37,309 nt of DNA, from positions 1-37,309 of IMG/VR virus record IMGVR_UViG_3300034198_014059; one strand, given 5' to 3'. Origin of the DNA: a virus. Below the pieces are notes generated by a model that saw nothing but the letters and a program-made list of their open reading frames with translations, did not search any database and was not told the DNA's origin. Positions 7,211 through 8,533 of the stretch are shown piece by piece. The position numbers and the translations under genes are program-made. Position 1 is the first letter of the stretch. Each line of letters opens with the position of its first letter.

Positions 7211-8533
7211 TTAAGCTGTTTGACCTGCAACTGTTCCTATTGCCGTCCATGTTACATAACTGTTACCAACTATATAGTATCCTGCCGCTCCACCTGCGGC
7301 TGCATTAGTATCCGATCCCGCACTACCTGTAGAGCCTAAGCCACCTCCAGATCCACCTTGACCAGTTGCTGTGCCAGCACCACCATTACCACCTGCGGCG
7401 GTGCCTGTAGAACTACCTGCTGTACCATTTGATCCGTTACCGTTAGCACCGGTACCACCCGACCCTGCGGCTCCACCATTTACCCCAGCGCCACCCCCGC
7501 CACCACCACCACCATAGTAGTAGTATGAAGTGCCCTTGCCACCACCACCACCACCACCGTTGTGTACACGAATACCGCTGGCTACGTAGGTATGTACATC
7601 TGCAACTTCAAAGTTATAAACATAATCATATGGCTCACCTGGTGTTATTTCTAAAATTTCTGTAGGGCTGCCATTATCGTCATAGATAATGTCTCCAATT
7701 TGCAGATGTTCTGCACGCACAAAATGCGGATAAGGTCCTGTGGCATCACGACTTGACGTTAACACTTCGTGATTGCCTGTAATTGTTAATGTACCCTGCT
7801 GATGATCGATGATTAATAATCTACTGAATTCATCTGCTTCACTCCAGCTATGTTTAAATACCTGTGTTACAGGTTTAGCTACTAACTTTGCAGCATAATT
7901 ATATGCACCTGGATCGGCATAGATATCAAACCCATATACCAAATCACCAGAGTTCAATGTTTCAATCGCTACCAATCCATTGGGCGTGTTAATCAATGTA
8001 CCAGCTGGGAAACATGTACTGGATGTAGAGAAATATCCACCACCGCCACCACCACCACCACCACCATAAATAAATCCAGTGGAGTTATCAATAATTATAT
8101 TACCTTGTGAAATTGCACTGATACTTAAAGCAGTTCCGCCTGCTGATCCAGCGGTAGCAGATCCGCCATAATTAGCTCCAGTTCCGCCAGCACCGCCTGC
8201 ACCTTTTATTGTGCCAGCATTAACAATGATAATTTGAGATCCTGTGGGGAAGCTACCAGACTCTAAAGAAGGAGTAGATGATGATGTTGAACCAATTACC
8301 ACACCTGAATTGATATTTACTCGCAATGTTAGAGGGATCGAAGGAGACCCAATGTATGAAAATAAATTTAAATTATTTGTATTAGAACTTATAGTAACTA
8401 CCTTGTGTAGTAGTTTCCATGATCCGCTGTCTCTTATATAAACTTCCTGTGGCTCAACCCAAGCACCAGAATTCTTGACATAGATCTGCTTAGACGGATA
8501 CCACGTGCTGGAATCTTTAACATATACTGGCAT
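7211..8533 (-). CDS. Polyglycine adhesin interrupted by a Hint (intein-like) domain
   Basis: This encodes 440 residues. The N-terminus carries three short repeats of the form (V/I)Y(V/I)(K/R)(D/N)SxxW (residues 3-45). A beta-rich part follows, then glycine-rich sequence with uninterrupted runs of 10, 7 and 8 Gly. The C-terminal part is almost only Gly, Ala, Ser, Thr and Asn. Such glycine-rich tips recall the gp38-type polyglycine receptor-binding adhesins of T-even phages. Between the first and second Gly runs, residues 174-325 form a complete Hint domain (separate entry). The natural reading is a host-recognition tip that processes or branches itself after translation. Splicing would join the Gly-rich flanks, while cleavage would split the tip in two. 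AGGA lies about 10 bases before the ATG. Confidence 0.88.
   Translation of the reverse strand: [440 protein letters not shown]
7490..8065 (-). repeat. Three in-frame GGT-rich polyglycine tracts
   Basis: Glycine-only codon runs lie at 8036-8065 (10 codons, six consecutive GGT), 7538-7558 (7 codons, six GGT) and 7490-7513 (8 codons). Replication slippage here would change loop length without breaking the frame. The first two tracts flank the Hint domain. Confidence 0.85.
7559..8014 (-). other. Hint / bacterial intein-like domain inside the adhesin
   Basis: These bases encode residues 174-325 (152 aa), a usual size for a Hint domain without an endonuclease. It begins with Cys174 in [13 protein letters not shown], followed by [14 protein letters not shown] (block A). 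[11 protein letters not shown] gives block B with His255. [20 protein letters not shown] gives blocks F and G, ending His324-Asn325. The residue after Asn325 is Gly, not Cys, Ser or Thr. That is unlike a standard intein and matches bacterial intein-like domains, which mostly cleave at one or both ends and splice poorly. The domain lies between two polyglycine runs. Confidence 0.9.

Follow-up and report, generated by a model that had tools for sequence, protein, structure and literature searches.

The window analysed here is the whole 37,309-nucleotide stretch of the viral IMG/VR record IMGVR_UViG_3300034198_014059. Positions 7211..8533 on its minus strand, the strand of all features of this gene, encode a 440-residue protein that was identified from the ORF call, the Pfam GP38 model and an AF2 model as a probable gp38-like tail-fibre adhesin with an inserted Hint domain. 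The insert, which resembles a type-A bacterial intein-like (BIL) domain, occupies residues 174-325 (7559..8014) and was recognised by Pfam PT-HINT and Hint_2, NCBIfam intein_Cterm, the AF2 model and PDB matches. It begins at the predicted catalytic Cys1, Cys174 (8012..8014), in a CFPAGT block, carries the block B TxxH motif as T252-G-N-H255 (7769..7780) and ends at the C-terminal junction with the block G pair His324-Asn325 (7559..7564), directly followed by Gly326; the initial annotation had given these coordinates and residues exactly. Alignment with insert-less homologues delimits the exteins. The N-extein (residues 1-173, 8015..8533) comprises a beta-rich part, the first glycine strands and the putative first half of a loop, called loop B below, with the sequence YFSTSST. 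The C-extein (residues 326-440, 7214..7558) continues with what is left of loop B and of the poly-Gly strands, up to the conserved GAAGYYIxGN..VTW end. That the Hint domain lies between polyglycine runs was upheld with one refinement: runs of ten (residues 157-166, 8036..8065) and seven glycines (residues 326-332, 7538..7558) are present, and the second begins at the +1 residue, but the upstream run does not adjoin Cys174, the seven residues YFSTSST, with Thr173 at -1, standing between them. KGTSYYYY (residues 333-340, 7514..7537) follows as the candidate second half of loop B. A second IMG/VR contig, of 60.8 kb, is 99.98% identical to the window over the 12,483 bp compared, which makes an assembly artefact unlikely.

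The products predicted for neighbouring genes include a baseplate wedge protein, a hub/lysozyme-like protein and a gp25-like protein, and by their sequences the surroundings are a T4-like baseplate and tail-fibre region. The minus-strand ORFs at 5518-6855, 8539-9768 and 9802-11184 resemble one another in their N-terminal part and appear to be paralogues. The first of them encodes a tail-fibre-like protein with a C-terminal match, just over the cut-off, to Peptidase_G2, an autoproteolytic intramolecular chaperone; on the strength of this match a second self-cutting protein may sit near the adhesin. A 4777-residue ORF at 12598-26931, also on the minus strand, is matched by an FG-GAP repeat model and, weakly, by a carbohydrate-binding model.

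Recognition of the Hint domain is far beyond chance. PT-HINT is its best Pfam model (E 2.8e-10), Hint_2 follows at E 1.9e-7, and these two and intein_Cterm all exceed their cut-offs; the HMM comparison proposed in the initial annotation thus bears out the Hint assignment. The top PDB sequence match is itself a BIL domain (E 8.7e-7). The AF2 model of the Hint domain has pLDDT >90 across most of the core, and its nearest solved structure is the Clostridium thermocellum BIL (2LWY; Z 19.9, rmsd 1.7 A over 134 residues). The Ssp DnaB mini-intein and Tetrahymena BUBL1 BIL2 (Z 19.1) are also near, with Hedgehog lower, a likeness of fold only. By every tested feature of sequence and model the domain is type-A BIL-like, with predicted activity. 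The Pfam matches, the alignment of 68 sequences described below and the structural matches agree with the earlier claim of a Hint/BIL-type domain that holds all residues for both terminal reactions, with a non-nucleophile at +1, inside a gp38-like poly-Gly adhesin.

The assignment of the host protein rests on a profile match, on Pfam matches of its homologues and on the AF2 model. Pfam GP38 matches the N-terminal part of the window protein at E 9e-4, below the cut-off, and matches 18 of 21 insert-less homologues; a profile built from these homologues finds PP01 gp38 (9V85) at E 0.008. The full-protein AF2 model has a mean pLDDT of 81 and a pTM of 0.59, with a poorly predicted C-terminal glycine region. 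It superimposes on S16 gp38 (6F45_D) with Z 18.2 and rmsd 2.8 over 200 residues, and on PP01 gp38 (9V85) with Z 16.8. The structural alignment to gp38 covers the window protein from close to its N-terminus up to its C-terminus, skirting the Hint domain, and in the model the two exteins fold together as a single body. Foldseek with the full model at first returned only Hint matches, and gp38 rows were found on a second look. The N-extein alone gave no match in the PDB by phmmer, and the C-extein alone gave none among deposited phages with the low-complexity filter in use. Sequence profiles and the predicted structure together make the host protein a long-tail-fibre adhesin of the gp38 type from a T4-like phage. 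Adhesins of this type are mounted on gp37 and bind a receptor in the outer membrane, a role that the window protein may share.

In the profile alignment of the insert-less homologues, the Hint site aligns with a 28-residue stretch of PP01 gp38 that includes the 10-residue loop B, Q161-V170. Two residues of that loop, Lys168 and Tyr169, possibly contribute to LPS recognition (PMC12892980). From this alignment we infer that the Hint domain interrupts the counterpart of the receptor-recognition loop B. A C-terminus pattern search gave 55 ORFs, nearly all without a Hint domain, and a search that used just the N-extein, and so took no account of the Hint domain, gave nine loci: the window's own phage (L308) and eight related phages (L309 to L316). 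Reading L316 and other named loci by eye, we found the Hint domain in seven of the eight related phages, the exception being L309. Together with about 50 more distant homologues, L309 is uninterrupted at the site. Its empty site is a 37-residue stretch, compared with 42 residues in the window once the Hint domain is removed, and the two are similar in length and ending; where the window has KGTSYYYY, L309 has GKGYYTQ and PP01 loop B has GKYV. Since L309 has nothing equivalent to the seven glycines after the window Hint domain, the restored loop resembles the empty one without being identical to it. The comparison with insert-less relatives proposed earlier thus came out as a match between the L309 site and the window loop minus the Hint domain, and it indicates that the adhesin is complete without the insert. 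Among the other relatives, L313 has a Thr-rich flank at the Hint domain. The adhesin relative at L315:2660-3946 (+) ends its Hint domain in VHN, followed by Lys at +1.

The catalytic residues are strictly kept. Across 68 diverse Hint sequences from several host proteins, mostly 28-40% identical to the window, eight columns are invariant, and these include Cys1, the block B T and H and the terminal V-H-N. Homologues degenerate at Cys1, the block B His and the final Asn had been named as evidence that would count against the domain; all three residues are invariant in this set. Because the search patterns themselves partly contain conserved residues, a reciprocal test was made from each junction separately. 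Selected by the N-side motif GGGGCFxxxT alone, 81 of 84 Hints (32 of 35 clusters) end in His-Asn. Selected by the C-side motif VHNGGGG alone, 64 of the 66 Hints listed (37/39 clusters) start with Cys. TxxH, which is in neither search pattern, is kept in 35/35 N-side clusters under a loose match (T, S or N first). Splicing or double cleavage needs both half-reactions retained, and the reciprocal retention of His-Asn and Cys indicates that both are. The +1 residue is Gly (or Ala) in most family members and Cys, Ser or Thr in only 6 of the 84 N-side-selected Hints.

Within the adhesin subfamily, dN was 0.08-0.23 for the Hint domain versus up to 0.37 for the exteins, with omega at about 0.05-0.15, a value that is approximate since dS was often above 1, near saturation. 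The Hint domain is the best-conserved segment in most pairs and, judged by these substitution rates, is under strong purifying selection. Such selection and the invariant catalytic residues would be unexpected for a passive spacer. They make it very improbable that the Hint domain is retained unprocessed as an extra tip domain, serving as a spacer, shield or binding domain, even though it is located in a receptor loop and both parts fold side by side with good confidence in the model.

The explanation that we favour, with a probability of roughly 55%, is that the domain cuts itself out of loop B in the manner of BIL domains and that the flanks are probably then joined, a chemistry taken from analogy with known BIL domains together with the sequence and the model. 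The adhesin would be made as a precursor whose loop B is split by the type-A BIL-like Hint domain. After folding, Cys174 would attack the Thr173-Cys174 bond to form a thioester, and cyclisation of Asn325 would release the C-extein with a free Gly326 amine. This unhindered amine could then attack the thioester, joining YFSTSST to a 15-residue C-side segment and ejecting the Hint domain. The ligated product would have a loop B of roughly 22 residues, like relatives without the insert. Cleaved, unligated adhesin, kept together by the glycine lattice, would be the expected by-product, and the processed form would be the host-binding form. Variation of receptor binding through several coexisting forms, as proposed in the initial annotation, would be a hypothetical consequence. 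There is precedent for such a route: type-A BILs with His-Asn can splice when the freed C-fragment amine attacks the N-terminal thioester, with cleavage dominating (PMC4031507). All residues for this amine-on-thioester route are present in the window Hint domain.

Whether the flanks are joined or only cut is the main choice. Type-A BILs keep His-Asn, lack a +1 nucleophile and mostly cleave when tested (PMC4031507, PMC7765530). Cleavage without ligation, at one or both junctions, is thus a possible though doubtful reading for the window protein, which itself has no +1 nucleophile: chains 1-173 and 326-440 would stay in the glycine lattice, as their single folded body in the model would allow, and a free Gly-rich N-terminus would be left at the receptor face. 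Nicked in this way, the adhesin may still be stable and able to function. Against the favoured explanation, the -1 residue is Thr and not Gly, L315 has Lys at +1, L313 has its Thr-rich flank, and the window has seven extra glycines relative to L309. In contrast, the retention of both Cys1 and the His-Asn pair, the unhindered +1 Gly or Ala amine in most members and the formation on joining of a sequence resembling an uninterrupted loop B suggest, from the sequences, that ligation is favoured over mere cleavage.

The least probable of the readings that we considered is that the Cys174 thioester serves for a covalent bond to another molecule, such as an amine on the host surface or a lysine in a different subunit, in place of internal ligation. 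BIL2 of Tetrahymena BUBL, among the nearest structures, is reported to form a Lys isopeptide bond by an unusual splicing route (PMC8616854), and Lys occurs at +1 in L315 and nearby, as Lys333, in the window. No partner or acceptor was identified for such a bond, however, and the conserved C-terminal Asn suits excision.

The initial annotation called a Hint domain in this setting unusual. That did not hold, as many tail proteins of environmental phages contain Gly-bracketed Hints. A VHNGGGG scan of viral contigs, with at least 120 matching stretches, gave at least 66 Hint matches among the 112 ORFs listed, many of them Gly-flanked on both sides; among 108 ORFs from a GGGGCFxxxT scan there were 91 Hints. 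In bacterial and archaeal genome contigs, VHNGGGG gave no Hints among the 93 ORFs listed. On this comparison (0/93 versus at least 66/112 viral ORFs, among the matches listed) we rejected the view that bacterial genomes commonly carry Gly-bracketed Hints. Deposited phages, searched with the window Hint domain, a gpJ-type Hint and a gpI-type protein, returned helicase inteins and Ruminococcus phage proteins and no tail-tip relative at the sensitivity used.

The host proteins are of several kinds. In gpJ-like proteins the Hint lies near the N-terminus (101 domain rows by the gpJ profile), and in gpI-like tail assembly proteins (phrog_32, phrog_4554) it lies in a glycine linker between two domains. 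Further placements are gpJ-internal sites with non-Gly flanks, C-terminal Hints and other virion proteins. In a tree of 73 domains the window groups with the adhesin Hints and with L015, a different glycine-rich protein (support 100/99). Well-supported branches of this tree require the gpJ N-terminal placement to have changed at least three times, and many of its deep forks lack resolution. Seven loci (L018, L028, L055, L093, L105, L120 and L121) combine a Gly-bracketed Hint in a gpI-like protein with another Hint, not flanked by glycines, in the neighbouring gpJ; the internal gpJ site is empty in five relatives with a gpI Hint (L022, L029, L038, L061 and L118). The gpJ-like protein at L079:83-6172 (+) carries two tandem Hints 10 residues apart, each with Cys1, TxxH and His-Asn. 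In L207, L240, L261 and similar loci, the gpJ N-terminus has a Gly motif upstream of the Hint (for example RIVGAGGGG) and an echo of it downstream (GIAGAGGGG), as though a short segment had been copied when the Hint was inserted. Tandem proteins at L046:6253-7494 (-) and L046:7689-9032 (-) have N-terminal Hint-like domains that lack Cys1 and keep His-Asn. According to a prediction in PMC1779556, a JAB peptidase cuts the glycine linker of gpI. We rejected the Hint in gpI as a substitute for this peptidase, as the adjacent gpK keeps NlpC/P60 and a JAB match, which exceeds the cut-off in two of the three cases tested and falls just short of it in the third. Extended to environmental phages at large, and only tentatively, widespread Gly-bracketed BILs may act as built-in ligases in the maturation of tail-tip proteins, namely the gp38-like adhesin, gpJ and gpI; glycine ends would be joined by a nucleophile-free reaction, and receptor- or hub-facing segments would be active only after self-excision.

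Our search of the open literature, with subscription papers outside its scope, found no description of such adhesins or of the Gly-bracketed family. As far as searched, a Hint domain in a phage adhesin receptor loop and a recurrent Gly-bracketed tail-tip family are both new there. To our knowledge, BIL domains, although known for two decades, largely lack a clear physiological role. A conserved BIL in a receptor-binding loop, an empty-site relative and a solved adhesin template make such a role testable: is self-processing a phage-tip switch? The gpJ- and gpI-like family suggests that tail-tip maturation via protein self-excision is common in uncultured phages, and the recurrence in environmental tail-tip proteins suggests that self-excision matures host-contacting parts. 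Should such natural domains ligate glycine ends with no nucleophile at +1, they would also be of practical interest for joining proteins.

Several known systems share part of this arrangement. The Hog domain of Hedgehog has no C-terminal Asn and yields a sterol-modified N-product, whereas the window Hint domain has a conserved C-terminal His-Asn. The PT-HINT domains of polymorphic toxins provide the best Pfam model, but the C-flank in the window is the rest of a glycine-rich adhesin and not a toxin domain; at E<=1, the Pfam models matching the window protein are only Hint or intein models and GP38. Tetrahymena BUBL1 BIL2 (6Y75, 6TMM) shares the Hint fold and joins ubiquitin-like domains via a Lys isopeptide in a ciliate. 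The helicase intein of Vibrio phage K459, a class 1 mini-intein and at 34% identity among the best full-length matches in deposited phages, shares the domain blocks, the size class and an intact host protein with an empty-site relative. It sits at DE|C..HN|CHH with Cys at +1, whereas the window, which has uninterrupted homologues as inteins do, carries Gly326 in place of the Cys, Ser or Thr of class 1 inteins, and its host is an adhesin and not a DNA enzyme. Type-A BILs sit in hypervariable regions of non-conserved proteins (PMC7765530), and the window Hint domain likewise lies in a variable loop of a gp38-like adhesin. With the C. thermocellum BIL (2LWY) it shares the Hint fold, Cys1, TxxH, the C-terminal His-Asn, a non-nucleophile at +1 and this variable-region placement. 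It differs from that BIL in its host, a phage virion adhesin and not a bacterial protein, in its Gly-rich flanks and in its position in the receptor-recognition loop of a poly-Gly lattice. The gp38 adhesins of S16 (6F45) and PP01 (9V85) share with the window protein the predicted beta part and the poly-Gly lattice with its loops; the window protein alone carries a predicted self-processing domain of about 150 residues in loop B.
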